64,000 bases of DNA from an uncultured Tateyamaria sp. (lineage in GTDB: Bacteria; Pseudomonadota; Alphaproteobacteria; Rhodobacterales; Rhodobacteraceae): the NCBI RefSeq assembly GCF_947503045.1, contig NZ_CANNCF010000001.1, forward strand, positions 1,116,001 through 1,180,000, given 5' to 3'. Shown piece by piece: positions 24,942-44,679 of the stretch. Under the pieces are notes generated by a model. It saw nothing but the letters and a program-made list of their open reading frames with translations. It was not told the DNA's origin and made no database searches. The first letter of the stretch is position 1, and every line of letters starts with the position of its first letter. Position numbers and translations under genes: made by a program.

Positions 24942-25029
24942 CCGGGTTCCTCGCAGGAGCTCGGAACATTCATTTCCGAATTTCGATCCACTGGATCGAA
25001 CTTTTTGCTTCGCAAAATGGAAATGAATG
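24942..25029. repeat. folded palindromic element beside the integration site
   Basis: A 10-bp hairpin with two G-T pairs (24942-24964) is followed two bases later by a three-way structure. Its closing stem CATTCATTTCC / GGAAATGAATG is perfect over 11 bp (24967-24977 with 25019-25029). Inside it are a hairpin TTCGATCC / GGATCGAA (24982-25000) and a hairpin TTTTGC / GCAAAA (25003-25017). In the ancestral chromosome it lay directly downstream of tRNA-Tyr on the minus strand, so it may be a tRNA terminator or a repetitive extragenic palindrome. Its last three bases overlap the attachment core. Confidence 0.6.
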
Positions 25030-25033
25030 GTGG
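25027..25033. other. attL core
   Basis: The heptamer ATGGTGG matches 44560-44566 exactly. To its left is chromosomal sequence with the folded element; to its right is the displaced 3' end of the recombinase gene. Short core identity without long direct repeats is normal for large serine recombinases, which exchange over a two-base centre. Confidence 0.7.
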
Positions 25034-25044
25034 ACCTCACTGTA

Positions 25045-25127
25045 GTAGAATCGAACCGTTTGTTCGAGGCTCTACAGGACTGGGAAAGCCAGCTCGCACA
25101 ACATGATCTAAGTGATCTGTGGTGCGA
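25045..25127. other. candidate oriT: inverted repeats upstream of mobC
   Basis: Two inverted repeats lie between the left end of the element and the mobilization genes: GTAGA-AT-CGAAC with GTTCG-AGGC-TCTAC at 25045-25075, and TCGCACAACA with TGTGGTGCGA (9 of 10 paired) at 25094-25127, ending two bases before the mobC start codon. Position next to mobC/relaxase and the repeat layout suggest an origin of transfer and/or MobC operator. The same bases also code for the detached recombinase tail, so selection on protein could confuse the picture. No nic consensus is recognised. Confidence 0.4.
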
Positions 25128-25129
25128 CA

Positions 25130-25531
25130 ATGACAATATCGCGCCATAATTTCAATGACATAGCCGCTGGCAATGATGCCAAGAAACGGGAAGCCCCTTT
25201 CTCGCTGCGGCTGTCCTTTGCCGAAAAAGCTGCTCTGCGTGATCTCGCAGGCGATATGCCCCTTGGTGCCTACATCAAGGCTGTCTTGAAGGATGCCATC
25301 CAGAACAAGAAGAAGATCGCGCCAAGCGCTAATCCCAAAGCTTTGGGCCGTGTTCTTGGCCAGCTTGGTAAAAGCAAACTATCCCAAAACGTCAATCAGC
25401 TCGCCAAAGCGGTGAATGTTGGCGCTCTGCCTGTCACACCGGAGACCGAAAGCGAGTTGCGCCAAGCCTGCGCGGATATTGCCGCGATGCGCCAAGAGTT
25501 GATGCGCGCCCTCAAATATGGAGGGCCATAA
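25130..25531 (+). CDS. mobC: MobC-like relaxosome accessory protein
   Basis: 133-residue DNA-binding partner of the relaxase. The SLRLSFAEKAALRDLAGDMPLGAYIK segment (written in part) looks like a ribbon-helix-helix region, and the C-terminal half (LGQLGKSKLSQNVNQLAKA) matches the bacterial mobilization protein MobC pattern. The ATG at 25130 is chosen over an in-frame GTG at 25112 because the latter lies inside the inverted repeat. The stop overlaps the relaxase ATG by one base (TAATG), so the two are coupled. Confidence 0.8.
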   Translation: MTISRHNFNDIAAGNDAKKREAPFSLRLSFAEKAALRDLAGDMPLGAYIKAVLKDAIQNKKKIAPSANPKALGRVLGQLGKSKLSQNVNQLAKAVNVGALPVTPETESELRQACADIAAMRQELMRALKYGGP

Positions 25532-26901
25532 TGATCCTCAAAGCCAAAGAACGCGGAAACGCGCCCCAACTTGCAAGATACCTCATGTCTATGAAGGACA
25601 ATGAGCATGTTGAACTACATGATTTACGTGGGTTCGTAAGCGATGATTTGGATTCGGCCTTCGATGAAGCGGAAGCGCTGGCAAAAGGCACGAAGTGCAA
25701 AAATCACCTGTTCTCAATGAGCCTGAACCCGCCGCAGGACAAACAGGTGGAATGCCACGTTTTCGAAGCAGCGATTGACCGGATTGAGCGCAAGCTTGAT
25801 CTGACCGATCATCAACGCGCCATCGTCTTCCATGAAAAGGAAGGCAGACGCCATGCCCATGCCGTATGGAGCCGTATCGACAGTGATGCGATGCGCGCCA
25901 AAAACATGGCCTTTTTCAAGCAAAAGCTGATGGATGTATCGCGCGATATCTATCTGGAAAACGGATGGGACATGCCAAAGGGCATGCTGGATCGCTCGAT
26001 GCGCAATCCTCTCAACTATTCCCGCGAAGAATGGCAACAGGCCAAACGCGCCAAGCAAGACTCGAAGCTGATCAAGGCGGCTATTCAGGACGCCTGGAAG
26101 AATTCGGATAGTGCCGAAGCCCTGAAGGCTGCGCTGGAAGAAAAAGGCTTCTTCCTTGCAAAGGGTGATCGCAGATCAGCCGTTGCCATTGATGTGCGCG
26201 GTGAAACCTTCTCGCTGTCCCGCTGGTCGGGCGTGAAGGCAAAGGATGTGCGCGAGCGTCTGGGCAAGGATGCTGATCTGCCTAGCGTTGATCAGACTAA
26301 GGCGCAAATCGCCTCGCGCATGACGGACAAGCTAAAATCCTATCTGAATGACGTCGATGCTGGCTATCGCCGTGCCTCCCCGGCTGTGGAGATGAAACGG
26401 CAAGAGCTGATCGCGCGCCATCAGCAGCAACGCGATGAGGCGACAAAACGTATCCAGCTTCGCGAACAGCGCGAGATGGCAGAACGTGCTGCCCGTTTGC
26501 CGAAGGGTTTCAGCGGAATCTGGTCTCGCCTGACGGGCAAGCTTTCACAGATCAAACAGGACAATGAGTTTGAAGCCTTGCGTGCATGGCAGCGTGACCG
26601 CGCCGAGAAGGATGCGCTCGTCCAGCGCCAGCTTGATGAAAGGCAAAGGCTACAGACGGCTATCAACAAAATGCGCGAAGACCGCGCTCGCGAAGTATCC
26701 GAAATCCGCAAGGAGATTGCAGCCTATATCGCCATGAAGCGTGGGGATGTGCCGAGTCTTGATGCTGCACAAAAAGCAAAGGACATCGCCAAGGACAAGC
26801 AACAGACGCGAAAGCGTGATGACCAGCTTGAACGGGTGCGCCGTGAGCGTTCCCGCGAGAGGAGTCGTGATCGTGGTTTTGATCACGGCCCTGAATTTTA
26901 A
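25531..26901 (+). CDS. relaxase/mobilization nuclease (VirD2-like)
   Basis: 456-residue relaxase expected to nick oriT and pilot the single strand. The metal-binding histidine triad is in VFHEKEGRRHAHAVWSRID (His101, His108, His110). A tyrosine near the N-terminus (RYLMS) is the likely nucleophile. The relaxase domain spans about residues 1-260; the C-terminal part is a charged coiled coil (about 280-450) rich in Arg/Glu and ending DHGPEF. It is coupled to mobC by an overlapping stop/start. No helicase or primase domain is fused. Confidence 0.88.
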   Translation: MILKAKERGNAPQLARYLMSMKDNEHVELHDLRGFVSDDLDSAFDEAEALAKGTKCKNHLFSMSLNPPQDKQVECHVFEAAIDRIERKLDLTDHQRAIVFHEKEGRRHAHAVWSRIDSDAMRAKNMAFFKQKLMDVSRDIYLENGWDMPKGMLDRSMRNPLNYSREEWQQAKRAKQDSKLIKAAIQDAWKNSDSAEALKAALEEKGFFLAKGDRRSAVAIDVRGETFSLSRWSGVKAKDVRERLGKDADLPSVDQTKAQIASRMTDKLKSYLNDVDAGYRRASPAVEMKRQELIARHQQQRDEATKRIQLREQREMAERAARLPKGFSGIWSRLTGKLSQIKQDNEFEALRAWQRDRAEKDALVQRQLDERQRLQTAINKMREDRAREVSEIRKEIAAYIAMKRGDVPSLDAAQKAKDIAKDKQQTRKRDDQLERVRRERSRERSRDRGFDHGPEF

Positions 26902-26925
26902 CGAGCAAACGAAAGGAGGTCGCCC

Positions 26926-27156
26926 ATGACTACCAACATGCGACATACATTAATGCTCAATCTGGACGCGGCACACGCCGCACAACTAAACGATCTGGCC
27001 AAGCACTTTCGGCTTGCCGCTGAGGACACTATCCGGCTGGCCATTCGGCTGACCCATGCCCGATTGGGAAAGCCCGATGTGCTGGTACCGGAGTTCAAAC
27101 CGAGCGCAGAGCGTGAAGAATGGCATGACGACGAAGATGACCACACGCCAAGCTAG
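26926..27156 (+). CDS. small ribbon-helix-helix-like protein of the mob operon
   Basis: 76 residues. The LMLNLDAAHAAQLNDLAKHFRL opening followed by AEDTIRLAIRLTHARLG resembles a ribbon-helix-helix DNA-binding fold, with an acidic tail (EEWHDDEDDH). The ATG at 26926 has AAAGGAGG about 6 bases upstream. It follows the relaxase by 24 bases and is probably cotranscribed, possibly as a copy or transfer regulator. Family assignment is by pattern only. Confidence 0.6.
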   Translation: MTTNMRHTLMLNLDAAHAAQLNDLAKHFRLAAEDTIRLAIRLTHARLGKPDVLVPEFKPSAEREEWHDDEDDHTPS

Positions 27157-27209
27157 CAAATCGGGCGTCAGTCAGCATAACCTAACGGTTACACAGAGAG
27201 GACACAGTG

Positions 27210-27485
27210 ATGATTGACTATGACGACGATTGGCAGGAAGTTTATCACTCTTATCATAATGATCATCTAGAGGAAGAATGTGATACGATCATCAAAAGCT
27301 TAGGTCCGGATGGCGCAAACTTCTTGCACCTCAGAGTGACACCGAAAGGCTGCCGCATCATCGAATTAATTGATCATTACAAAGGCGTAACGCTAACCAA
27401 GGATCAGCTTGATCGCTTCATTGAAGAATTGAAGCTGATATCTGATGAGTTGGGAAAACAGGAGCCGTGGCAAGAAGGCAGCTGA
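27210..27485 (+). CDS. hypothetical acidic protein
   Basis: 91-residue acidic protein of unknown function (MIDYDDDWQEVYHSYHNDH...), predicted alpha/beta with no membrane segment. The ATG at 27210 has AGAGAGGA upstream; a GTG immediately before it is in frame. It is the last plus-strand gene before a two-way terminator, and its codon use is more A+T-rich than the mob genes. No family recognised. Confidence 0.55.
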   Translation: MIDYDDDWQEVYHSYHNDHLEEECDTIIKSLGPDGANFLHLRVTPKGCRIIELIDHYKGVTLTKDQLDRFIEELKLISDELGKQEPWQEGS

Positions 27486-27543
27486 ATTGCCACAAACTTG
27501 CGCGATTTGCGAAGATGAATTCGAGCATAAATAGAACAATAAG

Positions 27544-27573
27544 AAAGAACCGCCCCATCTGAGGCGGCTCTTT
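27544..27573. terminator. bidirectional intrinsic terminator
   Basis: AAAGAACCGCC at 27544-27554 pairs with GGCGGCTCTTT at 27563-27573 with a single mismatch. The A- and T-rich ends serve as U-tracts on both strands. It separates the converging genes ending at 27485 (+) and 27576 (-). Confidence 0.75.
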
Positions 27574-27575
27574 AC

Positions 27576-28025
27576 TTAAAGTAAATCAAGCAGATTAATC
27601 TGCTGAGGCGTTTCTTCTTCAGACGGAAGAAAGATGACGCTTGGTCCGATCAAGACGTAGGGCCGCTTGCCGTGCTGGACGTGCATACCGTGATAGAAAC
27701 CTTCTTGGCGCTGTCCTGCTGCTGTGTTGCTACGGACAATCTGGCCATAAGTTTGCGGCTCTCCATCGAAGAATTTTGCAGGGATGAGTTGGTAAGCTTC
27801 AACGGAGCGTGACTTGCCATTGGAAACCATTCCGGTGTTCACCCACATGGCGTTTTGCCATTTGAACGGCTTTCTCACGGCACCTTCGAGTCCGATCTTA
27901 TCGGCGCTGTAGGAGGCGGCGATATCACCTTCGCCGATGATCTTATCCCTCTTGTGGCACCAGGTGCCTGATTCAAAGCGGGATGGATCGATGCGAAATT
28001 CTTTCTTTGCGATGGGAGCGCTCAT
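27576..28025 (-). CDS. hypothetical protein, second gene of a coupled pair
   Basis: 149-residue soluble protein of unknown function (MSAPIAKKEFRIDPSRFESG...), with a conserved-looking WQNAMWVNTGMVSNGKSRSV core and an acidic tail. The ATG at 28025 overlaps the stop of the upstream 78-residue gene (ATGA), so the two are translationally coupled. The longer open frame upstream of this ATG only repeats that neighbour in another frame. No domain recognised. Confidence 0.6.
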   Translation of the reverse strand: MSAPIAKKEFRIDPSRFESGTWCHKRDKIIGEGDIAASYSADKIGLEGAVRKPFKWQNAMWVNTGMVSNGKSRSVEAYQLIPAKFFDGEPQTYGQIVRSNTAAGQRQEGFYHGMHVQHGKRPYVLIGPSVIFLPSEEETPQQINLLDLL

Positions 28026-28258
28026 GAGCGCCCCGCTTCGTTTGAGGTTTCTGGAGTATCTGCCAGCGGCAGGCGCAGGACGATACGGCCATTGATTGGG
28101 CAGGTTTCCAGTTGGAGTGTGTATCCCCGCCCGTCCTTGTGCTTCCATGCGGCTCCGACGTTGGTCCAGAAGGACTTTTCGCCCTTTTGATTCACGTGCC
28201 ATGCCAGATAATCCGGCGCGTTCAATGGGAGTGTTTGGTTGGTTTTTTCGCGTGCCAT
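28022..28258 (-). CDS. hypothetical small protein, first gene of a coupled pair
   Basis: 78 residues (MAREKTNQTLPLNAPDYLAW...), with a compact beta-rich look: FWTNVGAAWKHKDGRGYTLQLETCPINGRIVLRLP. Small proteins of this style occur on alphaproteobacterial plasmids and islands as I recall them, but I cannot name a family. A GGAGAAAC ribosome-binding site precedes the ATG at 28258. Coupled by ATGA overlap to the 149-residue gene. Confidence 0.6.
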   Translation of the reverse strand: MAREKTNQTLPLNAPDYLAWHVNQKGEKSFWTNVGAAWKHKDGRGYTLQLETCPINGRIVLRLPLADTPETSNEAGRS

Positions 28259-28321
28259 GTTGTTTCTCCTTTGTTTGGGTCTTGCTTGCTAACGCCCTCC
28301 CGACAAGCCGGAGGCAAAGGA

Positions 28322-28794: not shown

Positions 28795-28799
28795 ATACG

Positions 28800-28979: not shown

Positions 28980-29103
28980 CCTCATCGCGGTCAACTATCA
29001 GGTTGGCCGTGATAACCTTTTCGTCGCCGGATGGCAGAGGTGACTTCTGACCTGGTTTCTGGTAAAATTTTGCCAATGAAACGGAAAACAATCGGGGTAG
29101 ATC

Positions 29104-29373: not shown

Positions 29374-29386
29374 CCAACATGCTGCC

Positions 29387-30862
29387 CTAAAATGGCGGGT
29401 CTTTCTTTTCCCATCTGTGCCGTTTAACCGAATAACTGCCCGTGTCGATACGGACAGAGCGAACTTCGTGAACCGTGACTGAATCAAGGTCTATTTCAAG
29501 CGTTTTCTCACGCGGGTCGTAATCTGCATAATCTTCCCAATCCATGCCGAGCATGTCGGAGAAACGTGGTCCGGTTTTCTTGCGCTCGTCAGCCTCATCA
29601 GCATCTTCTTCGGGCGGGGTTTCCTCAATGACCGTATAATCCGGCTCGGGGCCGTCTTCATACTGGGTGTAGGTGCGCGCACTGATCTCTGTGCCTTTCG
29701 GGATATCTATTTCGCGTGTCCGCGAAGCCTTGTGAAACAGCACAAGATTGACCCCATCACCACCAACCTGAACCGAGGGGAACAAGATGCCATCCAGCTG
29801 CATCTTGTTTTCAGTTGCAAGGTAATCGGAAATGGCCTGCGTCGGCAGGTACGCCATTTCCTGATCGTCGGGCATGACGGGCTTAGCCATCCGGTTACTC
29901 AGAGTCTGGAGAAACGCCATGCGACCGAGCCTGTTGGCATATTCGGCATCAAAAATGCTGCCGCTCTCGTGAACGTTATCCAGTGCGCTCAGATCAAGCA
30001 GTTTCAATGGGCGAATGATGTTGAAGCGCGCAAGAGCGACTTTGCTGCCTACTGGAGGGCGGACTTCTGCGAGAACTATGTCTGGTGAGGTAGCCCCATA
30101 GAAAACAGAGATACCGCGCGCATTCATGCGGCCCGCTCCTGCCGCCGAAGCGGGCGGCGCGGCCAAGCCGCGATCTGGACGGGAAATCGCTTCTTCAAGC
30201 GGCTCGTCGGACTGGAACATCCGCCCGCGATATAGATGGGTAATGTCGCTCTTCGGTCCGGCAGATACAACCAAAGGAGTGCCGTCTGCCGTACGCATAT
30301 TTTCGATTTTGTCGAAAAGTTCTCCCAGATAACCAGATGCGGTACGGCTGAAGAACCGCGCCTCCGTCTTGATCAGCGATTCAAAGTAATCCCAGCGCTC
30401 CCGCCAATCACTATCACCCGGCATGACCTCCTCATAGTGGGCATCCGAGGAGAATTCGCACTCATCATCCAGGGCCGCTTCTTCGAAGTCGAAATTCCGG
30501 TATTCCAGAATGTTTTGGACATCGTGCGCCGCTTCTTCCGATATGTCTGCCGCGTCCATAATCGCATAGACGGTTTGCTGACCATCGCGATCCCAATCGT
30601 AGTCGATCTCTTTGTCCCGAAGCATGGCATATTGATACGAGTTCGGCTGGTTTGCAGTGCGCTCAAAATGGCTCTCGAAGGCGGTCTCGACTGCGTCGGC
30701 TAGTGCTTCCAGCGTGAGACATGGAGCCTCCTCTCCGCAATATGAGCAAAGTTGTTCAGACTCGTGTTTTTCAACGAGTGCCGAGAGGTAGGCTTCGCCG
30801 ATACAAGAGGAGCAAATCGTCTCCTCTTGCAACTCTTCAATCTCGTGTCTTTCCTTTACCAT
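29387..30862 (-). CDS. RES-domain protein with HEPN/RES N-terminal domain
   Basis: 491-residue cytoplasmic protein. The N-terminus has a cysteine cluster (CSSC at 17-20, CSYC at 39-42, Cys48) and an acidic helical region typical of HEPN/RES N-terminal domains. The RES fold follows, with LYRGRM, the FYGATSPDIVLAEVRPPVG block and a later PTQAISDYL segment, and then a long acidic C-terminal extension. RES domains in toxin-antitoxin systems degrade NAD+; solo HEPN-RES proteins are suspected abortive-infection factors. No Xre-type antitoxin is adjacent. The Arg and Glu positions expected for NAD+ attack are present. Confidence 0.8.
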   Translation of the reverse strand: MVKERHEIEELQEETICSSCIGEAYLSALVEKHESEQLCSYCGEEAPCLTLEALADAVETAFESHFERTANQPNSYQYAMLRDKEIDYDWDRDGQQTVYAIMDAADISEEAAHDVQNILEYRNFDFEEAALDDECEFSSDAHYEEVMPGDSDWRERWDYFESLIKTEARFFSRTASGYLGELFDKIENMRTADGTPLVVSAGPKSDITHLYRGRMFQSDEPLEEAISRPDRGLAAPPASAAGAGRMNARGISVFYGATSPDIVLAEVRPPVGSKVALARFNIIRPLKLLDLSALDNVHESGSIFDAEYANRLGRMAFLQTLSNRMAKPVMPDDQEMAYLPTQAISDYLATENKMQLDGILFPSVQVGGDGVNLVLFHKASRTREIDIPKGTEISARTYTQYEDGPEPDYTVIEETPPEEDADEADERKKTGPRFSDMLGMDWEDYADYDPREKTLEIDLDSVTVHEVRSVRIDTGSYSVKRHRWEKKDPPF

Positions 30863-30935
30863 TCCGACACTCTAGCGCGCCATAACATGTTGTAAAGCAT
30901 AATCAAAAGTGACTTTTTAGAGATGGAAGAGTCCT

Positions 30936-30966
30936 CAAAAACGGCTGGCTAGTCAGGCCAGCCTAA
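30936..30966 (-). terminator. terminator downstream of ardC
   Basis: GGCTGGC pairs with GCCAGCC over 7 bp (30943-30963, seven-base loop). On the minus strand it is followed by GTTTTTG. It lies between the ardC stop and the RES start, separating the two minus-strand transcripts. Confidence 0.65.
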
Positions 30967-30990
30967 ATTTTTCTCTTGCAAGGTGCCGCC

Positions 30991-31896
30991 TTATGCGGCG
31001 GCTCCTTGCTGCTCTTCCTCAATCATAGGCTGGCACCCATGCAAAAAATCAGCGGCGCGCTGCGCATGGGCAGCAGCGGAAAAGATCGCCCGCTTGTCTT
31101 CCTTCAAAACCTTCAACCAGTTCTGAATATAGGCGGCGTGATCGCTTCGGACCTTGGGTGTCAGTTCAAGATCAGCGCAAAGAAATGCTGCGCCCAACTC
31201 GGCAACCAACTCTTCACGGGCATAGCCTTCATCACCCCATTTCTTGCGCCCAAACTCACGGTCAAGGCGGCTCTTGTGCTTTGTCCAGTGCGTGAGTTCA
31301 TGCGCTAAAGTTGCGTAGTATGCTTCTGGGCTGCGGAATGTCTCGAAATACGGCATTTGCACATGATCGCTGCCACCACTGTAAAAAGCGCGGTTGCCGC
31401 CATGCCTGATATCGGCGCGGGTGTGATTGAAAAATTCCTCCGCATGATCGATCCGCAAATCCGGATCAATGATCGGCTCGGGCTTGGAATAGTAGTGCTC
31501 GGGCAAGCCTTCGATCTGATCGACATTGAACACGCTGTAACCCTTCATGAACGGAATTTTCCGCTTTTCGTCCTGCCCGTTCTCGCCTTCCTCAGTTTTG
31601 GTGATGGTGTTGGCGTAAACTACCAGATTGCCGCACTCGCCCTTCTTCACATGCGCGCCCAACTCCTTGGCTTGGCGGAAGGTCATCCAGTACGGGGAGA
31701 GATATCCGGCCTCGACCGATGCGCCCCACAGCATCAAAATGTTGATTCCGTTATAGGGCATGCCGTTATGCCGTAGCGGCTTGGTGATCTTGCCCTCCAG
31801 ATTTCCGCTGCTCCAAGGCTTGAGCCAGCTCAGCTCGCCTTGCTCCAGATCAGCGATGATCTTGTCTGTTACTTTCTGATAAATATCTATCTTCAT
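30991..31896 (-). CDS. ardC: ArdC-like antirestriction protein (zincin domain)
   Basis: 301 residues. The N-terminal ssDNA-binding domain (MKIDIYQKVTDKIIADLEQG, then PYNGINILMLWG and YWMTFRQAKELGAHVKKGE) is followed by a C-terminal metallopeptidase-like domain with HELTHW. ArdC proteins coat incoming single-stranded DNA and protect it from restriction during conjugation, which suits a mobilizable element. A ribosome-binding site GGGAAAAG lies just upstream of ATG 31896. The protein is complete. Confidence 0.88.
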   Translation of the reverse strand: MKIDIYQKVTDKIIADLEQGELSWLKPWSSGNLEGKITKPLRHNGMPYNGINILMLWGASVEAGYLSPYWMTFRQAKELGAHVKKGECGNLVVYANTITKTEEGENGQDEKRKIPFMKGYSVFNVDQIEGLPEHYYSKPEPIIDPDLRIDHAEEFFNHTRADIRHGGNRAFYSGGSDHVQMPYFETFRSPEAYYATLAHELTHWTKHKSRLDREFGRKKWGDEGYAREELVAELGAAFLCADLELTPKVRSDHAAYIQNWLKVLKEDKRAIFSAAAHAQRAADFLHGCQPMIEEEQQGAAA

Positions 31897-32215: not shown

Positions 32216-32293
32216 GCGCCAAACTCGGGCACTTTACACTTGACGTAACGCGGAAGAAAACTGACGTTGCCGCTGACATCTACGAGGATACTC

Positions 32294-32626
32294 ATGAATA
32301 TTTCTGATATTCGGCGGGTGCCGCACCCAGGGCAGACATTAAGACAACGCTTGAAAACCGCTGGTCTCAGCGCTGCGGCACTATCTCGTCGATTGAATGT
32401 TCCAACAAACCGCGTCACAAGCATCATGAATGGACAGCGTTCTATCAGCGGTGACACTGCATTGAGATTAGCGCATTTCTTTCAAACATCCCCCGACTAT
32501 TGGTTGGGACTACAGGTGGAGTATGAATTGTTTAAGGCTGTAAAAGAAAAAGGGCGCGAAATTGTCGATCTTCCGACCATTCAATCTACTGGGAACGATA
32601 TTGAAAACGGCTGGAAGCAAGTATGA
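32294..32626 (+). CDS. HigA-family HTH regulator heading the restriction operon
   Basis: 110-residue Xre/HigA-type helix-turn-helix protein. PHPGQTLRQRLKTAGLSAAALSRRL followed by NRVTSIMNGQRSISGDTALRLAHFF (both written in part) is the HigA pattern, with the SPDYWLGLQ block after it. No HigB toxin gene is adjacent; the next gene overlaps by four bases (ATGA) and is a DNA methyltransferase. It is therefore more likely an operon control protein, comparable to the C-proteins of restriction systems. The ATG at 32294 has GAGG upstream. Confidence 0.8.
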   Translation: MNISDIRRVPHPGQTLRQRLKTAGLSAAALSRRLNVPTNRVTSIMNGQRSISGDTALRLAHFFQTSPDYWLGLQVEYELFKAVKEKGREIVDLPTIQSTGNDIENGWKQV

Positions 32627-33639
32627 CCATTAATCCAGCCAATCAAGACGAAGTCTCCGATGGTTTGCACCCCACTGTTTACGAAACGGCAAAGGGCCGC
32701 CTCATAAATAGTCGGATTGAAGATTTTATTGATGGTGACCTCGGCCAGCAATATGCCGAACAAGTCGATCTGATTGTTACCTCACCGCCTTTTCCGCTTC
32801 TTACCAAGAAGAAATACGGTAATGAGTCAGGGGAGCAATACCTCAACTGGCTCAGTGAGCTTGCCCCAAAACTGACCAGTCTTTTGAAGCCTGAAGGCTC
32901 CATTGTGATCGAGATCGGGAATGCTTGGGAACGCGGCGAGCCTGTCATGTCTACGCTTCCGCTGGAGGCGCTTCTGGCCTTCAAGAAAGCTGCGGGCCTG
33001 CATCTTTGCCAGCAAGTCATCTGTCACAACCCGGCGCGACTTCCAAGTCCTGCGGAATGGGTGACGGTCAATCGCTGGCGGCTCAAGGATTCCTATACGC
33101 ATGTGTGGTGGATGTCCAAAACACCAAGACCGAAAGCTGATAACAAGAAGGTTCTTGTCCCCTACAGCAAGGGCATGAAGCAACTTCTCAAGAAACAATC
33201 CTACAATGCTGGCAAGCGGCCATCTGGCCATGATATTTCCAAGACAGGGTTCCTCAAAGATCACGGCGGTGCCATCGCGCCCAATGTTGTTGATCTTACT
33301 GACGCGGCCTTAATTCCTGAGTCTTTGCTTCGGTTTAGTAATACCGGATGGGATGCAGGCTATAGAAAATACTGCGAAGACAATGGCCATGAAGCACACC
33401 CGGCGCGCATGCAAGCAGGGCTTGCCGCGTTCTTCATTCAACTGCTCACCGAAGAGGATAATCTGATCATGGACCCGTTTGCTGGCTCCAATACCACCGG
33501 GGCGGTTGCCGAGGGGCTTGGCCGTTCGTGGCTGGGGGTTGAAGCGCACCGTGATTATGCGGAAGGATCGCGTGGCCGACTTCTGGAGCAAATCGTTGGC
33601 GGCGACATTACTGGTGAAGACGGAGACAAAGATCAATGA
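32623..33639 (+). CDS. site-specific DNA methyltransferase (amino-methylating, beta class)
   Basis: 338 residues. Catalytic motif IV TSPPF (residues 53-57) comes before the SAM-binding motif DPFAGSNTTG (from residue 284), the beta-class order. SPPF favours N4-cytosine methylation, though N6-adenine cannot be excluded. A target-recognition region lies between (about 150-260). It starts four bases inside the regulator and overlaps the GHKL ATPase by four bases, so the operon is tightly coupled. It probably protects host DNA from the nuclease encoded downstream. Confidence 0.88.
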   Translation: MTINPANQDEVSDGLHPTVYETAKGRLINSRIEDFIDGDLGQQYAEQVDLIVTSPPFPLLTKKKYGNESGEQYLNWLSELAPKLTSLLKPEGSIVIEIGNAWERGEPVMSTLPLEALLAFKKAAGLHLCQQVICHNPARLPSPAEWVTVNRWRLKDSYTHVWWMSKTPRPKADNKKVLVPYSKGMKQLLKKQSYNAGKRPSGHDISKTGFLKDHGGAIAPNVVDLTDAALIPESLLRFSNTGWDAGYRKYCEDNGHEAHPARMQAGLAAFFIQLLTEEDNLIMDPFAGSNTTGAVAEGLGRSWLGVEAHRDYAEGSRGRLLEQIVGGDITGEDGDKDQ

Positions 33640-35210
33640 GCGATGCACTTGAAGCCGAACTGTCAATTGGTCCGCAAGCCTTAAGTGCCTATAGCCGTCT
33701 AAGCTATACGATGTGGCATGCCTTGGCAGAGTTCATCGATAACTCGACGCAATCGCGTTTGAACTATGAGGGCATTATTGATGATGTGCTTCAAGAAGAA
33801 GGCACGCCTCTTGTTGTGGACATTGTTTACAACAGGTTAGAGCGACTGATCCGCATTTCCGATAACTCTATTGGAATGACGAATGCTGATCTTGTTGAAG
33901 CGCTCCGCGTCGCGCATCCGACAAATGACAGCAAAGGCCGCTCCAAATACGGCATGGGTATGAAAACCGCTGCGTGCTGGATTGGCAAAAGCTGGCGGGT
34001 CATTACATCTGAATGGGGCAGTCCCGAAGAATGGACCGCAGAGATCGATGTAGAGGCCATTGCCCATCAAGGTGCGCGCGTGCCGCTTTCAAAGAAGGAT
34101 GTATCGACCGATAGCCATTACACGATCATCGAGATTTTTGATCTGAACAGAAATATTCAAAAACGCACCGAGGAGAACATCCGGGCCTATCTCGGCTCGA
34201 TGTACCGAAATGATATCATGGCTGGCACGATGAAGCTGCTTTACGGCGGCGAAGAAATTTCCCCGCCAGATGAAGCGCCTTTTGATACAGACGCAGAAGG
34301 CCGTCCCATGAAGCTGGAGCTGGACGGTCTTGTGATTGGCGGAAAGCCGATTACAGGCTGGGTCGGTGTATTGAAGAAGGGTGGCCGTAAATATGGCGGC
34401 TTTTCCCTGTTTCAGAACGGTCGTCAGATTCAGGGCTTCCCGAATGCGTGGAAGCCGCGCAGCATCTTCGGCGGCGTTGATGACGAAGGTGCAAACAACC
34501 TTGTTGCACAGCGACTTACAGGTGTCCTGAATCTGGATGGATTTGATGTATCGCATACCAAAGATGCGATCTTGTTTCAGGGAGATGAGGAAGAAGATCT
34601 GGAAACAAGCCTCGCGAAGATCACGCAAGACTATCGAGCCTATGCTACCAAGCGGCGCGGCGAGCGCACGCAGGTCTGGTCGCGTGAGAAAATCAGAGAC
34701 CTTGTGAAAACGATGAGCAAGGAGTTCGCAAGCTCTGAGATGAGCGATGCGGTCAACAATACTGTCTTGCCGCCTCTTGAGGCTATACTCGCCAACAACC
34801 AGCGTCAGGTTTCAGCGCTGAGTGAAGATGATTACCTTGCCAACTTTACGGTTGGCGGGCAGATCAATATCAGGGTCGCACTACAAGAGCGCAGTGAGCA
34901 TGATCCATATGTTTCTATTGTTGCGGCAGCAGAGCCGGATACAATCAATATCGTTATCAACCGCCTGCACCCTTACTACGAGTCCTTGGAGACATCCGAG
35001 GCGATTGATGAATGCATCCGCCAGTATATTTATGATGCGATTTCAGAGTATAAGGTTCATAAGCAGCAAGCCGCAGTCAATCCTGATAGCGTGCGCCGTG
35101 GCAAAGATACACTGCTGCGGGTGCAAGAACTAAAAATCGAGAACAGTGCCGCCGCACTGGAGCGAGAAGTCATAGTCGCCACCGTGCCGGGAACCGAGAG
35201 TGGCGGGTAG
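33636..35210 (+). CDS. MORC-like GHKL ATPase of the restriction operon
   Basis: 524 residues. The GHKL ATP-binding fold shows the N-box EFIDNSTQS (Glu32, Asn36), G1-box SDNSIGM (Asp76) and G2-box GRSKYGMGMKTAA (from 101), followed by an S5-like transducer segment up to about residue 300 and a helical C-terminal half. There is no histidine-kinase phosphoacceptor domain. Prokaryotic MORC/MutL-type GHKL proteins were described in restriction-modification neighbourhoods with helicases and nucleases (Iyer and Aravind's work), matching this context. It overlaps the methyltransferase by ATGA and precedes the helicase by only a few bases. Confidence 0.8.
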   Translation: MSDALEAELSIGPQALSAYSRLSYTMWHALAEFIDNSTQSRLNYEGIIDDVLQEEGTPLVVDIVYNRLERLIRISDNSIGMTNADLVEALRVAHPTNDSKGRSKYGMGMKTAACWIGKSWRVITSEWGSPEEWTAEIDVEAIAHQGARVPLSKKDVSTDSHYTIIEIFDLNRNIQKRTEENIRAYLGSMYRNDIMAGTMKLLYGGEEISPPDEAPFDTDAEGRPMKLELDGLVIGGKPITGWVGVLKKGGRKYGGFSLFQNGRQIQGFPNAWKPRSIFGGVDDEGANNLVAQRLTGVLNLDGFDVSHTKDAILFQGDEEEDLETSLAKITQDYRAYATKRRGERTQVWSREKIRDLVKTMSKEFASSEMSDAVNNTVLPPLEAILANNQRQVSALSEDDYLANFTVGGQINIRVALQERSEHDPYVSIVAAAEPDTINIVINRLHPYYESLETSEAIDECIRQYIYDAISEYKVHKQQAAVNPDSVRRGKDTLLRVQELKIENSAAALEREVIVATVPGTESGG

Positions 35211-35216
35211 TATGTG

Positions 35217-36371
35217 ATGCCAGCCCAGGAACTCAGGCGTTGGCAGCATGAAGCTATGGATGCTTGGCTCGCAAACCAGAAACGTGGCATTGTTGGCGCG
35301 GTCACGGGCGGCGGCAAAACAGTCTTTGCACTGGCCAGCATTCTGCGCACGCGGCCTGAAACAACGCTTATTGTTGTTCCGACTGTCGCATTGCTGGATC
35401 AGTGGTGGGAGGAAACAACCAGCTTTTTCGGTTTGCGGCTGGACGATGTAAATCTCATCACTGGCCGAAAAAAGCTGGTGCGCGGCACTATCAATATCAG
35501 TGTTCTCAATACTGCGGCCAAGCTGAAACCAAACTGGCCCGCCCAAGACGCTATGCTCGTTATTGATGAGTGCCATAAGGCAGCAAGCGATAAATTCAGC
35601 GCTGTTCTTGATCTACCTGCGGAACAACGCTTGGGGCTGTCTGCAACGCCAGAGCGCCCCTATGATGACGGCTTATCCGAAAAGCTCATTCCGACCCTTG
35701 GAGACGTCATCTACCAATACACTTATGCCGACGCGTTGCGCGACAAGGTGATCGTTCCGTTCGTTCTTGAAAACGTGGTCTTTGAACTTGAGGAAGACCG
35801 CGAAGCGTCTTACGCGAAGCTCACACGAATGATTGCCCGCGCGATCTCGGAACATGGGGCGGAAGCGCCCGAGACAATCAGCCTGTTCTTGCGGCGATCC
35901 CGTATCCTGAATTTGAGCCCTTCAAGGGTGGAAATAACACTGCGTCTTGTTGCAGCGCATAGAAGCGAACGCATTCTTGTTTTTCATGAAGATGTCGAGG
36001 CTTGCACGGTCATCCATGAAGTTTTGAAGGCGAGCGGTGTTCGGGCAGAGCTTTATCACGCCGGACTGCCAGCAAAGACCAGAGCGCAAGCGCTTGCCGA
36101 TTTTCGCCAAGGGCGCGCTAGTGTGCTTGTGACGTGCCGCGCCCTTGATGAAGGCTTCAACGTGCCGGAAACTGAAGTTGGAATTATTGCCGCCAGCACA
36201 GCAACGCGCAGGCAGCGCATCCAAAGGTTGGGCCGGGTCTTACGCCCTGCCAAGGGTAAGGACACTGCGCGAATCTACACGCTCGTTGCAACCAAAGCAG
36301 AGATTGACCGATTGCAAGCCGAAGAAGACGAACTTGAGGGTGTCGCCAGCGTTTCGTGGAGTCACGCATGA
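35217..36371 (+). CDS. SF2 DEAD/DEAH-type helicase of the restriction operon
   Basis: 384-residue minimal two-lobe superfamily 2 helicase. Motif I TGGGKT (30-35), motif II DECH (117-120), motif III SATPER and motif VI QRIQRLGRVLRP are all intact, resembling the Res/SSL2-type helicases of restriction systems. The ATG at 35217 is preferred over a GTG three bases earlier. It overlaps the nuclease gene by ATGA. No nuclease or methylase domain is fused. Confidence 0.85.
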   Translation: MPAQELRRWQHEAMDAWLANQKRGIVGAVTGGGKTVFALASILRTRPETTLIVVPTVALLDQWWEETTSFFGLRLDDVNLITGRKKLVRGTINISVLNTAAKLKPNWPAQDAMLVIDECHKAASDKFSAVLDLPAEQRLGLSATPERPYDDGLSEKLIPTLGDVIYQYTYADALRDKVIVPFVLENVVFELEEDREASYAKLTRMIARAISEHGAEAPETISLFLRRSRILNLSPSRVEITLRLVAAHRSERILVFHEDVEACTVIHEVLKASGVRAELYHAGLPAKTRAQALADFRQGRASVLVTCRALDEGFNVPETEVGIIAASTATRRQRIQRLGRVLRPAKGKDTARIYTLVATKAEIDRLQAEEDELEGVASVSWSHA

Positions 36372-37144
36372 GAAAAATGATGATCTCCCCGTGCCAGCCA
36401 GATCATATATTCTCGATGTGTGATCCGGAACTGCCAAGCGAGACCGAGTTTGAGGCAATAACGCTGCGCGCCTTCGGATGCCTGTTTCCTCAATATCAAT
36501 GCGTCGTCTTTGGTGGGCGTTTCTCATACGAGGACGAAAACCGCAAACCGGATTTGGCGATGATCGCGCGCGATAATTCGCACTGGTTTGTTGTGGAAGT
36601 AGAACTGGTTTCGCATTCGTTAGAAGGTCACGTACTGCCGCAAGTTCGGACCTTTCGCTATGGAGAGCCACAAAAAGAATGTGCCAGCATCTTGTCGCGG
36701 GAGCTTAGCGTTGATCTGGGGGCTGCGCAGACCTTGATTGATAGAGTGCCGCGCGCTGTAGTCGTTGTCGTGAACAAATCACGGTCGGATTGGCATCATG
36801 CGATGCGCGCACATCAAATACAGCTTCTGACGGTAACGCGGTTTGTCTCTGAAGAAGGACGTGAGGCCTTCGAGATTGACGGGACATTGGCTGCCGCGAA
36901 AGAAAGCATAGGATTTGGCGTCTATAGCGCACCGGACGCAATGATCCGGTTTCTGGCCAACGTAAATTTGCCGGACGGACACATTCAGATGGACAGCCTC
37001 GGCGGCGGCGCAAGCCTCTGGCGGGTTATTCGCGACGAGCGCCACGCATGGGTTTCGAAAGACAGTGGTCGTCCAGACATTCCGGATGGAGCGCATGTGC
37101 AATTGCTTCGCACTTATGATGGGCGCATTACGATGCGACTTTGA
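36368..37144 (+). CDS. PD-(D/E)XK-like nuclease, last gene of the restriction operon
   Basis: 258 residues. The central strand-turn-strand ENRKPDLAMIARDNSHWFVV followed by EVEL gives Asp62 and Glu77-x-Glu79, the arrangement of a PD-(D/E)XK active site with Glu in place of Lys. Arg and His residues follow in HVLPQVRTFRYG. The C-terminal part (180-258) is a separate small beta domain (SLWRVIRDERHAWVSKDSG). Its position in a coupled methyltransferase/GHKL/helicase operon makes an endonuclease role the best reading. The family was not recognised by name. Confidence 0.65.
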   Translation: MRKMMISPCQPDHIFSMCDPELPSETEFEAITLRAFGCLFPQYQCVVFGGRFSYEDENRKPDLAMIARDNSHWFVVEVELVSHSLEGHVLPQVRTFRYGEPQKECASILSRELSVDLGAAQTLIDRVPRAVVVVVNKSRSDWHHAMRAHQIQLLTVTRFVSEEGREAFEIDGTLAAAKESIGFGVYSAPDAMIRFLANVNLPDGHIQMDSLGGGASLWRVIRDERHAWVSKDSGRPDIPDGAHVQLLRTYDGRITMRL

Positions 37145-40654: not shown

Positions 40655-40726
40655 ACGACCGGACGGCCTCGCTGCTCTTTGAGGCCGTCCACCACTCACC
40701 AAATTAGAAACCCGGAAAGCTCAACC

Positions 40727-42361
40727 ATGCTCGCACATGATCATCCATACGGCTCGGCGCGTTTCGCCTCCGACCTTGAAGTGCACCAAGCATTCAAGAG
40801 CCAGGGTGGTGTACCGTTTGGCTTCTATAATGGCCGTAAGCTGTTCCACTCCAAGAAAGCAGGTATGCTGCTGATCGGCGGCGCGGGCTCCGGCAAGTTC
40901 ACGAGCGTTCTTTCCCACATCATCAATGCGAGCGGACGGGACGGCGAGCCTGCCCGCTATGCTATCTTCGATCCCAAGCGCGAGCTGCGCGCAGTGCTGG
41001 AGCCATATCTGGCGAGCATTGGCGCTGCTGTGTATGAAATCAATCCCTACGGCGTGCATGGCGCGCAAGGCAATCGTCTCTCGCTTCTTGCGCATCTCAC
41101 GCCGGACTCCCCAAGGCTGGTGGCCGATAGCAGGCGTGTAGCCCGCACCTTTATCCCCGAGAGCGAAGGGGGACGCGATCAGTTCTTTGAGCAAAAGGCC
41201 CAGAACTGGCTGGACGCGCTAATTCGCGGCCTTGTCCATCTGGATGGCGGGGTTTCTCCTGCCTCGATCTACAAACTGCTTGGCACGATCCGCGCCGCGC
41301 CTGAAGCGTGGGATGAAATGGCAGAGATCATGGCCGCGATGGGCGAGCCTGATCTGGCTGTCGCCTATGCCGAGATGCGTGAAATGCGCCTTGAGAGTGA
41401 GCGCACCTATCAATCCGTCATGGGCGAGTTGTCCAATCGCCTGTCGTTCATGGCGGACGGCGCTTTACAAGACGCCTTCGTCTCGGGCACTGAGGCCGAG
41501 TTCTCACTGGATATTTTATGCGAAGACACAAACCAGCCTGTTTTCGTGTTCTTCGTTATGCCGCCGGAACTGACCGAACAGAACGCGCCACTGATCCGGC
41601 AGTTCTTTTCGAGCCTTCGCACAATCAAGCAGCAGCACCCCAGATCTCCAACGCTCATTCTGGTGATTGATGAAGCGGCGCAGCTTGGTAGTTTCCCTGA
41701 GGTTGCGGATTTCTATTCCATCGGCAGAGGCTTTGGCCTGTGCCCGATCACGGTCTATCAGGACCTTGGCCAGATCAGAAAGAACCTTGGGCCAACGGGC
41801 GCGATGACGCTCTCGGCCAGCAGCGATCTGGAAGTCTATCTGGGCGGCGGTATCTCTGATCTGGATACCGCGCGGCATTTAAGCGCCAAGCTCGGAAATC
41901 AGACCTTATCCCTTGATGATCCGCTGACGCAGCAGCGCGCTGGCCGCGCCAAGCGTGAAGCCATTCTGGCAGCGTTCCGTGGACAGGCCGATCCATACAA
42001 GACAGGCGCTGCTTTGCGCGCCCTTGATTACGAGATGAGCCACCAGCGCAAGCAGGCGCGCCCCTTGCGCACGCCCGAAGAGATATTGGCCATGCCGCAT
42101 AACCAGGCTTTGGTCATGCCATCAGGCTACGGCATCCCGCCCTTCATCGCGCAGAAGAAGCCGTATTTTGAGGTGAAGGACTACACAGGCCTCTATGGCC
42201 CGAACCCGTATTTTGATCGCGATATGGACAGCGTTTCTGTGCCGGGCTGGCCGTGGCGCAAGCGCCTCAAGATGATCCGCGAGGCCGTCCCATCCAGCCA
42301 TGCTCATCTACCGCAATACGCAAACGGCACATGGACGTTTGTGCAAGGGTATCGCCCTTAA
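40727..42361 (+). CDS. VirD4/TraG-type coupling protein without membrane anchor
   Basis: 544-residue DNA-translocating ATPase that would deliver the relaxosome to a conjugation channel. The nucleotide site is LLIGGAGSGKFTSV (Lys57), followed by YAIFDPKRE. Walker B is LILVIDEAAQLGSFPE, with the family-typical YSIGRGFGLCPITVYQDLGQ and a C-terminal APQ-like block. Normal VirD4/TraG proteins carry two N-terminal transmembrane helices; this one begins directly in the soluble part (SARFASDLEVH). The ATG at 40727 has GGAAAG upstream. Two small membrane proteins precede it. Confidence 0.88.
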   Translation: MLAHDHPYGSARFASDLEVHQAFKSQGGVPFGFYNGRKLFHSKKAGMLLIGGAGSGKFTSVLSHIINASGRDGEPARYAIFDPKRELRAVLEPYLASIGAAVYEINPYGVHGAQGNRLSLLAHLTPDSPRLVADSRRVARTFIPESEGGRDQFFEQKAQNWLDALIRGLVHLDGGVSPASIYKLLGTIRAAPEAWDEMAEIMAAMGEPDLAVAYAEMREMRLESERTYQSVMGELSNRLSFMADGALQDAFVSGTEAEFSLDILCEDTNQPVFVFFVMPPELTEQNAPLIRQFFSSLRTIKQQHPRSPTLILVIDEAAQLGSFPEVADFYSIGRGFGLCPITVYQDLGQIRKNLGPTGAMTLSASSDLEVYLGGGISDLDTARHLSAKLGNQTLSLDDPLTQQRAGRAKREAILAAFRGQADPYKTGAALRALDYEMSHQRKQARPLRTPEEILAMPHNQALVMPSGYGIPPFIAQKKPYFEVKDYTGLYGPNPYFDRDMDSVSVPGWPWRKRLKMIREAVPSSHAHLPQYANGTWTFVQGYRP

Positions 42362-42400
42362 ACCACCAAGACCCGTAACCTCAACCAAAAGGAGAACACC

Positions 42401-42997
42401 ATGATTGCAAAGACAAAAATATCGCCGCGAGGCGGCAGAATTTGTGAATCACGCATAAAATATGTTAAAATGAAGTATGAGGTGAATGAAGGCTCACAGC
42501 CACTTGGCGAGCCGAACGTCATTCATCCAGCCGCCTCTGTTGATCAACGAGAGGCACCTTCAAGGGCAGACGGAAATCATGCACATCCGGTAATTTCGGA
42601 TGAGGAAACGCGCACGCCAAAAACCAGTGTGGGAAAGGAGAGTGCGACCATGACAGAGTATAACGATGTCACAGTCGAAGACGAAAGCAAGCTAAGCGAT
42701 GCGCTGGACGCTGCTCTCGAAAAAGCACCAATGAAGTCCGTTGGGATCGATGTCGAGAAGTATCAGGCGTATCTAGATGATCCTGACCTATCTGATGAAG
42801 AAAGAGAGCAGCTCGTTCTTTTGATCTGGCAGATCATGATGGCTTTCGTAGACCTTGGCTTTGGCGTGCATCCAGTTCAGCAAGCCTGTGGACAAGTTCC
42901 CGAAAGCGTTGATGAGACGGGCAATCGGGATTCAAGCATGCTAAGTTCAAGCTCAACCACGTTGAGTGACACATTTAACCACATTGCGGCAGAGTAA
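42401..42997 (+). CDS. hypothetical protein upstream of the recombinase
   Basis: 198 residues. The first half is polar and disordered; the second half has a conserved-looking helical block (DVEKYQAYLDDPDLSDEERE, then LVLLIWQIMMAFVDLGFGVH) and a Ser-rich tail. The ATG at 42401 has AAAAGGAGA upstream; an in-frame ATG at 42650 could give a shorter product. It ends 26 bases before the recombinase and is probably cotranscribed, possibly as a recombination accessory factor (inference from position only). Confidence 0.55.
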   Translation: MIAKTKISPRGGRICESRIKYVKMKYEVNEGSQPLGEPNVIHPAASVDQREAPSRADGNHAHPVISDEETRTPKTSVGKESATMTEYNDVTVEDESKLSDALDAALEKAPMKSVGIDVEKYQAYLDDPDLSDEEREQLVLLIWQIMMAFVDLGFGVHPVQQACGQVPESVDETGNRDSSMLSSSSTTLSDTFNHIAAE

Positions 42998-43023
42998 GTC
43001 TCGCCGCCAGATAAGGAGGAGTC

Positions 43024-44679
43024 ATGAATCATGCAGTAACACATAAGACCGAAGCGCAGAGTGCGCTGATCTATTGCCGTGTCTCTGACAAAAAACAGAA
43101 GACCGATGGCCATGGCTTGGAAAGCCAGGAGCATCGTTGCCGACAGTATGCCGATGAGCGCGGCTATGAGGTCGATATGGTCTTTCCCGACGATATTACG
43201 GGCGGGACAGATTTCATGGAAAGACCCGGTATGCGCGCCATGTTGGCATATCTCGACGCCAAGCAGGGTCAATCCTACGTCGTCATTTTCGACGATTTGA
43301 AGCGCTTTGCGCGTAACACGGAATTCCATATCAAGCTGCGCCGGGAGTTTGCCGAGCGCGGTGCCCGTGTCGAATGCCTGAACTTCAAGTTTGAAGACAG
43401 CCCCGAAGGCCGCTTCATCGAAACTATTATTGCCGCGCAAGGCCAGCTTGAGCGCGAACAAAACAGCCGTCAGGTTGTTCAGAAGATGAAGGCCCGCGTG
43501 GAAAAAGGCTATTATGTGTTTTATCCACCAGTCGGTTATCGCTACTCCAAGGACCGCCAGCACGGCAAACTGCTTGTGCGCGAGGAGCCTGTGGCAACTG
43601 TCATTGCTGAGGCTCTCGAAGGCTATGCCTCTGGCCGTTTTCGCTCCCAGGTCGAAGTAAAACGGTTTCTGGAATCCAGACCAGAGTTTCCCAAAAGTGG
43701 CTCTAGTGGATATGTGCATCCTTCTAAAGTGAAAGACATGCTGATGAAGCCTGTCTATGCGGGCTATGTCGAAGCCCCCAACTGGGGCGTTAGTGTTCGC
43801 AAAGGCCACCACGAACCACTAATAGATTTTGAAACACACGAGCGCATCCAGACTATCTTGAACGGAAAGGTCTATGCGCCCGCGCGAAAAGATATCAATG
43901 AAGATTTCCCACTGCGTGGATTTGTGGCTTGTGATGATTGTGGCGAGCCGATGACCTCCTGCTGGTCGAAAGGCCGCAAGAAGCACTACGCTTACTACCT
44001 TTGCGATACTCCAAATTGCGCCTCCAAACGCAAGTCTATCCCACGTGCCAAGATTGAAGACGGAGCAGAGGCCGTTCTGCAAACGCTACAGCCTGCTCGA
44101 CCGCTTGTTGAGATGGCACGCGCCATGTTCAAAGACCTGTGGGCTCTTCGGCTATCTGAGGCCGAACAGGCGAAGGTTACGCTCCAGGCACAGATCAAAG
44201 GCTTAGAGAAGCAAACGCAGGCACTGCTTGACCGCATCGTAGACGCCACAAGCGAGTCTGTGATCAAGGCTTACGAGGATCGCATTGATAAGCTGGAGCG
44301 TCAGAAGTTCGCTCTGCTGGAAAAGTCTGACAACTTGGCTCCAACACATAGGGACCAGAGTGTAGTTATCGAACCAGCTTTGAATTTCTTGGCAAACCCT
44401 TGGAATATTTATAAAAAAGGCAGCTTCACTGTACGCCAGACAGTGCTTCGATTGGCTCTTTCAGAGCCGTTGAGGTTCTGCCGTAATGAGGGTTATCGAA
44501 CCGCTAAAACTACCTTTCCATTCAAGGTGTTAGCGGATTTTTCAACACAAAAGTGTGAGATGGTGGGCGACCCTGGAATCGAACCAGGCGTGCGTCTCCG
44601 CGAGGGAGTTACAGTCCCCTGCCACACCTTGCGGCCTGTCGCCCACTGCGCCATTAGGGTAAGAAACCCGGCAGCGTGA
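43024..44679 (+). CDS. large serine recombinase (integrase), 3' end replaced by host sequence
   Basis: 551 codons as they stand. The resolvase domain has YCRVSDKKQ with nucleophile Ser21 and the RFARN arginine block. The recombinase domain follows (PPVGYRYSKD, RFLESRPEFP), then a zinc ribbon (CDDCGEPMTSC, YYLCDTPNC) and a coiled coil (about 375-440). The natural coding sequence ends at the attachment core: from codon 513 (44560) the frame reads antisense tRNA-Tyr (VGDPGIEPGVRLREG...) to a chance stop at 44677. The proper tail is at 25027-25149. The start ATG has AAGGAGG upstream. Confidence 0.9.
   Translation: MNHAVTHKTEAQSALIYCRVSDKKQKTDGHGLESQEHRCRQYADERGYEVDMVFPDDITGGTDFMERPGMRAMLAYLDAKQGQSYVVIFDDLKRFARNTEFHIKLRREFAERGARVECLNFKFEDSPEGRFIETIIAAQGQLEREQNSRQVVQKMKARVEKGYYVFYPPVGYRYSKDRQHGKLLVREEPVATVIAEALEGYASGRFRSQVEVKRFLESRPEFPKSGSSGYVHPSKVKDMLMKPVYAGYVEAPNWGVSVRKGHHEPLIDFETHERIQTILNGKVYAPARKDINEDFPLRGFVACDDCGEPMTSCWSKGRKKHYAYYLCDTPNCASKRKSIPRAKIEDGAEAVLQTLQPARPLVEMARAMFKDLWALRLSEAEQAKVTLQAQIKGLEKQTQALLDRIVDATSESVIKAYEDRIDKLERQKFALLEKSDNLAPTHRDQSVVIEPALNFLANPWNIYKKGSFTVRQTVLRLALSEPLRFCRNEGYRTAKTTFPFKVLADFSTQKCEMVGDPGIEPGVRLREGVTVPCHTLRPVAHCAIRVRNPAA
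44560..44566. other. attR core at the tRNA-Tyr 3' end
   Basis: ATGGTGG, identical to 25027-25033. On the tRNA strand it reads CCACCAT, covering the encoded CCA end, so insertion leaves tRNA-Tyr whole. The left side is recombinase coding sequence and the right side is tRNA. Confidence 0.7.
44561..44644 (-). tRNA. tRNA-Tyr (GUA)
   Basis: An 84-base class II tRNA folds on the minus strand. The acceptor GGGCGAC pairs with GTCGCCC and is followed by A and an encoded CCA. The anticodon stem is GGGGA/TCCCT around CTGTAAC (anticodon GTA), the variable arm is long, and the T-arm is CCTGG-TTCGATT-CCAGG. It is the integration target of the mobile element, whose right end touches its 3' end. Confidence 0.95.

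Follow-up and report, generated by a model that had tools for sequence, protein, structure and literature searches.

We analysed a 64,000-nucleotide stretch of DNA (the window) from an uncultured Tateyamaria sp., a marine-type alphaproteobacterium, in which an element of about 19.5 kb is inserted at a tRNA gene (25027-44566, from the core of the left attachment site, attL, to that of the right one, attR; delimited by core repeats, the tRNA and the layout of relatives). We consider it probable that this is an integrative and mobilizable element (IME) with its own attachment site (attP) inside the 3' end of its recombinase gene, such that the integrity of that gene and of an adjoining operon reports the state of the element. 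Judged by sequence comparison, integration splits the recombinase gene, strands a conserved native tail at the far end of the element and cuts the operon alongside, and the split is a rule across a clade of related recombinases.

The recombinase gene is divided between the two ends of the element

The features that carry this reading are as follows.

25027-25033, plus strand: attL core, ATGGTGG, with the shared crossover region TGGTGG at 25028-25033
44560-44566, plus strand: attR core, ATGGTGG, abutting the 3' end of tRNA-Tyr
44561-44644, minus strand: tRNA-Tyr(gta), the target gene (tRNA call)
43024-44559, plus strand: large serine recombinase, residues 1-512 (PF00239, PF07508, PF13408; Foldseek matches to serine integrases)
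44560-44679, plus strand: replacement tail from antisense tRNA-Tyr and beyond, predicted to be disordered
25027-25149, plus strand: 3' end of the native recombinase gene (40 codons and the stop), left behind at attL (tail homologues, phase, codon bias)
25130-25531, plus strand: mobC-like gene, its ATG inside the tail gene with a 20-nt overlap (position and sub-threshold MobC/NikA-like Pfam matches)
25531-26901, plus strand: relaxase of the MobA/VirD2 type (PF03432, E 1.5e-12)

An earlier note on this DNA had proposed that ATGGTGG marks both ends of the element, that the recombinase reads antisense tRNA-Tyr from codon 513 to a stop at 44677, and that a 40-codon frame in the same phase at the left end completes a gene of about 552 codons. 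Its coordinates and phase are right: the recombinase open reading frame (ORF; 43024-44679) encodes 551 amino acids, enters the antisense tRNA at codon 513 and stops with TGA at 44677-44679, while 25027-25149 translates as MVDLTVVESNRLFEALQDWESQLAQHDLSDLWCDNDNIAP followed by a stop. Joining the two parts gives 512 + 40 = 552 codons, and integration replaces the last ~7% of the enzyme with antisense-tRNA codons. A seven-base repeat 19.5 kb apart, taken alone, proves nothing; the arrangement goes beyond chance because the repeat sits at a tRNA 3' end, because the junction codon is the same in 65 of 66 tRNA loci and because the tail is conserved (below).

The 551-residue product has the architecture of a large serine recombinase, with resolvase (PF00239), recombinase (PF07508) and zinc-ribbon (PF13408) domains above cut-off and predicted long helices at residues 359-438, in keeping with the coiled coil of this class. 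The nearest curated models were XisF and CcrB, both matched far below their cut-offs. A structure model built from a 46-row alignment (rows with internal stops excluded) had a mean predicted local distance difference test score (pLDDT) of 78 and a predicted template modelling score (pTM) of 0.36, with residues 508-551, which include the tRNA-derived tail, below a pLDDT of 50. The top Foldseek hits were full-length serine integrase complexes (9dxf, 9dxd, 9dxh), followed by Bxb1, phiC31 and A118 chains; with TM-scores by query this low (about 0.2-0.4), the model is no reliable guide to how the domains are arranged. The enzyme is thus assigned to the large serine recombinases and is predicted to catalyse attP x attB recombination, in keeping with the attachment cores and with an exact empty site in a relative.

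The native tail is a conserved coding sequence

When 46 relatives' genomes were searched with the 40-residue peptide, matches were found at E ≤10 in 31 and at E ≤1e-3 in 18. From these, 30 attL loci were fetched (L134 was left out of the attL set as a chance match), and 17 of them shared a contig with a recombinase, as judged from matching lengths (L031 was accepted despite a 100-base difference). In all 17 pairs the tail lay upstream of the recombinase on the same strand. Ten pairs rest on peptide matches at E ≤1e-3 and seven on weaker ones (E 0.0025-0.65), which nonetheless fit by place, strand and phase. The reading phase across the shared stretch agreed in 15 of 15 testable pairs, including one of the other phase class (L040); the two remaining pairs, for which no tRNA was called, did not enter the test. 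Of the fifteen pairs that could be sized, L078/L128 covers 2.3 kb, perhaps as a remnant, and the other 14 measure 14.5-35.5 kb.

Of 61 relatives of the genome that holds the window, 11 contained tails matching a profile of 22 tails. Five of these tails could be paired with a recombinase by contig and strand, two of them in G022 and the others in G023, G026 and G045. By lists compiled by eye from the two outputs, a tail match was present in seven of the 13 genomes with a long recombinase, and four genomes had a tail match without a long recombinase match (G008, with a partial recombinase, G029, G035 and G037).

Selection on the tail was assessed in 21 attL sequences, the window's and 20 others. 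Parsimony steps at codon positions 1/2/3 were 14/14/19 in codons 1-8 and 15/16/52 in codons 9-23, where changes at third positions were favoured. The rate of non-synonymous change (dN) was below that of synonymous change (dS) in 171 of 172 usable pairs, with a median ratio of 0.36, the pairs not being independent of one another. The tail frame was free of stops in all 21 sequences, and both other forward frames contained at least one stop in every sequence. The constrained part of the 40 residues is the motif SNxLFxxLxxWxxxL. By these codon-level patterns the left-end peptide is a real coding sequence encoding a conserved protein segment, with its far end under weak constraint.

The split is a rule among related recombinases

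A genome scan gave 75 loci from other genomes; together with the window's own locus and two more from the same genome, 78 loci matched the recombinase body. A tRNA gene was called at the junction in 66 of the 78, in every case on the strand opposite to the recombinase, and the recombinase frame entered the tRNA by at least one codon in 65 of these 66. Relative to a single alignment position, the tRNA 3' end was 2 nt off in 52 loci and 3 nt off in 13. In the exception (L032) the tRNA ends at -21 nt and the recombinase frame stops short of it. The recombinase gene thus overlaps the attachment site at its 3' end, and the called targets are tRNA genes rather than ssrA. They comprise 10 isotypes, between which a quick tree requires at least 24 changes (70 rows, with eight of the 78 loci omitted; 61 rows with a tRNA label and nine unlabelled; no bootstrap). 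Tails acquired in the integrated state range from 2 to 468 codons, with a median of 21, and two loci (L027 and L065) reach a stop within a few codons past the junction. Across these alignments the split is the rule for this large serine recombinase clade, which is mostly alphaproteobacterial in the loci seen.

The core common to both ends in relatives is usually TGGTGG, matching the target tRNA; it is TGGTGC in one tRNA-Thr pair and one tRNA-Leu pair, and at a tRNA-Glu locus (L043) the common stretch is CGTCCC. The codon-like triplet that opens the 21 attL sequences is ATG in nine, TTG in five, GTG in three, CTG in three and another triplet in one. The base preceding the core at attL is chromosomal and variable, so the A common to both ends in the window is incidental.

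The window's genome holds further members. One, on contig C6, has a tail beginning at 80471 and a core at tRNA-Leu(tag) near 102638; this tail scored poorly against the tail profile and was located through core and phase. A recombinase on C5 lies in tRNA-Ser(gct), with a likely tail on C3 at 499688 that shares TGGCGGA with it, a pairing we infer since the halves lie on different contigs. On C4 a decayed recombinase match lies beside tRNA-Ser(cga).

More widely, a probe comprising the recombinase end and the tail was matched in 120 of 394 genomes of the window's family, and most of the matches listed cover only one half of the probe. All 444 phage records and all 95 plasmid records that match the recombinase do so below 60% identity. 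One relative, from a scan of viral contigs, is a 12.9 kb contig of a viral collection with a recombinase 74% identical (L190, 1623-3113); its end reads MVGDPGI..., resembling the form integrated in tRNA-Tyr and not the native tail. In the one plasmid record inspected (H3; L197, 4001-4745), a 1.19 Mb replicon of Tritonibacter mobilis filed as a plasmid, a fragment of a recombinase of this family runs into tRNA-Thr(ggt).

Integration also separates the recombinase from mobilization genes

The tail gene is followed by, and overlaps, the mobC-like gene, which is in turn followed by the relaxase gene. Among 31 attL stretches (the window, the C6 member and 29 relatives), a homologue of the mobC-like protein was found in 30 and of the relaxase in 30, all on the strand of the tail; one stretch (L132), counted among the 31, lacks both. 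The mobC alignment starts at residue 1, ahead of the tail stop codon, in 20 of those 30 stretches. Because of this overlap, integration severs not only the recombinase gene but also a run of recombinase, mobC-like gene and relaxase that the circle would rejoin, with no intergenic space remaining; in the integrated state the mobC-like gene is left behind chromosomal DNA. This operon cut alongside the gene split is new here. The earlier note had recognized the split and the native tail, both of which are supported, and had overlooked the overlap with the mobC-like gene and the link to the relaxase.

On the chromosomal side of attL, a scan found a terminator-like hairpin at 24982-25000, one of three such sites in the scanned stretch against 1.1 expected, which is no evidence of function. 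The scan found no promoter-like site on the plus strand at 24700-25600, weak evidence that likewise does not speak to function.

Joined forms and empty sites

Joined forms of the gene occur in other genomes. In G089, on a contig whose length matches that of G214 C12, a decayed recombinase remnant continues in a single frame into a tail. On contigs C27 and C31 of G240, recombinase C-termini run on into tails whose stops each overlap an ATG, and on C27 that ATG opens a mobC-like frame (both judged by eye).

An exact empty site was found for the element of Roseobacter sp. MH60115 (L076/L111). In locus L212, from genome G497 of the same genus, tRNA-Tyr and the right flank (91%) follow the left flank (87%) without interruption through ATGGTGGGCGACC, exactly the predicted join. 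The left flank in question (L111) was matched in 15 of 19 genomes, and 11 loci were examined. Apart from L212, one (L213) lacks the element and has both flanks, but with 174 bases separating the flank match from the tRNA, and one (L211) has the left end of the element at the same place; tRNA-Tyr was not found in the remaining eight.

At the window's own locus, genome G009 shares the left-hand gene as well as tRNA-Tyr and the gene on the right, separated by an unrelated insert of about 4 kb (L154, 1263-5334). This arrangement supports the inferred locus, though it is not an uninterrupted site, and the unrelated insert indicates that the tRNA-Tyr site is reused by other elements. All 10 loci matched within the window's genus keep the right flank at tRNA-Tyr, and the left flank does not adjoin it. 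The empty-site comparison suggested in the earlier note has succeeded in one relative and not at the window's own locus.

A model for the element and its alternatives

In the circle we propose, the recombinase, mobC-like and relaxase genes would form one same-strand run, the first two overlapping, and the recombinase would end in the conserved 40-residue tail. Crossover in TGGTGG at the tRNA 3' end leaves the recombinase body at attR, reading antisense tRNA, and the tail, mobC-like gene and relaxase some 19.5 kb off at attL, detached from whatever promotes recombinase expression. Only in the circle would the full-length enzyme be made and the mobC-like gene and relaxase be expressed in linkage with the recombinase, in the manner of Tn916; this would favour mobilization after excision, and integration by native enzyme once in the recipient. 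An integrated copy would encode a recombinase whose tail is arbitrary and probably disordered; for the element to excise without help, this version must still be able to support excision. Gating of transfer by the operon cut, a role of the tail in integration and any effect on excision may follow from this layout.

Several observations weigh against this account. No tRNA was called at the junction in 12 of the 78 loci, and no tail match was found in six of the 13 genomes with a long recombinase (G007, G011, G014, G016, G017 and G021), so some tails must be diverged, lost or outside the assembly. Codons 24-38, the last third of the tail, showed no codon bias (38/29/38 steps). All joined loci are partial or frameshifted, with no intact unsplit gene among the matches listed. 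The search for empty sites found no uninterrupted one for the window's own locus, no tRNA and no empty site in the six loci fetched for the left flank of L028, and no full-length match but its own for that of L114, whose partial matches went unexamined. Finally, a promoter for the mobC-like gene could lie inside the recombinase or tail gene.

What the tail does for the enzyme bears on two further explanations. The earlier note had suggested that the split could separate integration from excision activity. Directionality would then be built into the split: the native tail would be required for integration, and the swapped tail would shift the enzyme to excision or disable it. The tail is indeed under protein-level constraint although a complete gene would exist in the circle alone. 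The tails of the integrated state, with lengths between 2 and 468 codons, are unconserved and so unlikely to have a specific function of their own. Serine integrases, however, usually reverse with the help of a separate directionality factor, as abstracts likewise describe, and the conserved gene just upstream of the recombinase (42401-42997) could encode one. We regard built-in directionality as a serious but unlikely explanation. A fuller version, in which the circle form is integration-competent, the tRNA-given tail blocks re-integration or permits excision, and the relaxase is silenced until excision, strikes us as doubtful; were it true, a single attachment site would encode both directionality and the licensing of transfer. 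The opposite view is that attP overlaps the end of the gene to save space, the tail is a structural add-on of minor importance, its loss is non-regulatory and the operon cut is incidental. The weak constraint on the far third of the tail fits this, as do L027 and L065, whose early stops imply that an integrated enzyme needs hardly any tail, provided that these copies are active. It is opposed by the strong constraint on codons 9-23 and by the layout with the mobC-like gene and relaxase, which, over differing targets and hosts, is retained in 30 of the 31 stretches. On balance we think such neutrality rather improbable.

The nature of the attL peptide is more clearly settled. It could be a separate small protein, for instance a directionality factor, with its own start at attL: an ATG opens it in the window, and ATG, GTG or TTG does so in 17 of the 21 attL sequences. 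Yet the first base of that codon is chromosomal and variable, CTG is found in three sequences and no start in one, in every testable pair the peptide keeps the recombinase frame, and joined natural forms exist; we rejected this candidate as very improbable. Alternatively, the tail might be conserved merely as DNA, as a noncoding right arm of attP. Codons 1-8, next to the core, show little codon-position bias, as a binding site would, but changes mainly at third positions in codons 9-23, and a frame open in all 21 sequences while the others are not, largely refute conservation as pure attP, which we consider scarcely tenable. The IME with attP inside its own recombinase gene thus remains the reading that we favour.

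Relation to known systems

Integrative elements reportedly tie the integrity of host genes to their integration state, as regulated gene integrity; here the element's own genes are cut. None of the papers listed in the literature searches describes this recombinase family in its title or the beginning of its abstract.

The nearest known case, and a partial precedent, is DsiB of the Dehalococcoides ssrA islands, a large serine recombinase whose gene always overlaps the attachment site at its 3' end, as in the window (McMurdie et al. 2011, PMC3146451). The dsiB gene reads on into target or neighbouring DNA, and its authors suggest that the protein may be fully functional in the circle alone (PMC3146451). 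Given this precedent and the standard layout of the present clade, the statement in the earlier note that such a disruption is unusual for large serine recombinases has to be corrected. The systems differ in that DsiB targets ssrA, whereas the clade described here uses tRNA genes of 10 isotypes. In the account of DsiB the alignments diverge past the junction with no conserved tail reported, whereas here the tail is conserved; the passage on dsiB describes no relaxase link (PMC3146451), whereas here a mobC-like gene and a relaxase follow the tail. DsiB is called a CcrB homologue there, and the window's enzyme matches the CcrB model below threshold.

Integration of SSV-type suicidal archaeal elements likewise partitions the integrase gene, and excision would need the split copy or a complete one, as described in PMC8371274. 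Those are archaeal tyrosine integrases, whereas the enzyme here is bacterial, has serine recombinase domains and sheds only its last ~7%; it works like an SSV-type integrase without being one. In mycobacteriophage integration-dependent immunity, attP lies in the repressor gene and integration strips its 3' end and changes the protein (PMC9934374). There the lost end is a degradation tag, while here the split gene is the recombinase, and the native tail ends in NIAP, unlike the ssrA-like AA end of that tag (PMC9934374). In Tn916, transfer genes come under an element promoter only once the element is circular, and a terminator insulates the integrated end (PMC11658703). That system uses a terminator and an antiterminator RNA (PMC11658703), whereas here the join falls inside an overlapping reading frame.

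What had been a remark on one serine recombinase, dsiB, becomes a general design, a clade whose C-terminus is altered upon integration, and the design also detaches the recombinase from mobilization genes while the target tRNA changes freely. A possible effect of C-terminal identity on serine-integrase directionality, and a possible licensing of relaxase expression by excision, are now testable. Because chromosomal gene predictions of this kind end in antisense tRNA, an enzyme taken from one lacks its native tail.

Other features of the element

An IME has its own integrase and relaxase, site-specific ends and no complete set of conjugation-pore genes; by Pfam the element encodes an integrase, a relaxase and a coupling protein, with the search for pore genes covering part of its ORFs.

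40679-42361, plus strand: type IV coupling protein of the VirD4/TraG type (PF02534, E 6e-34)
42401-42997, plus strand: conserved gene just 5' of the recombinase, with a homologue in 61 of 73 loci that have at least 400 bp upstream
24949-25026, strand not assigned: chromosomal side of attL, hairpin sequence including the terminator-like site 24982-25000 (plus strand)

The product of 42401-42997 has no match in Pfam or NCBIfam; its position alone suggests that it may act as a regulator or a directionality factor.

The chromosomal side of attL (24949-25034) matches at 84-86% sequences directly after tRNA-Ala 3' ends or fragments (twice in G006) and after tRNA-Met in G007; the matched stretches include L152, 818-1105, and L153, 1170-1254. 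By these matches, the attL-side hairpin is a repeat associated with tRNA 3' ends in the window's genus.

The cargo at 32267-37144 is defence-like, with an N6/N4 DNA methylase, an HATPase_c_3 ATPase, a ResIII helicase resembling PbeA (PADLOC) and a 262-residue protein with no family match. A minus-strand pair at 29387-31896 encodes an ArdC-type anti-restriction protein with a metallopeptidase domain and a RES-domain protein.

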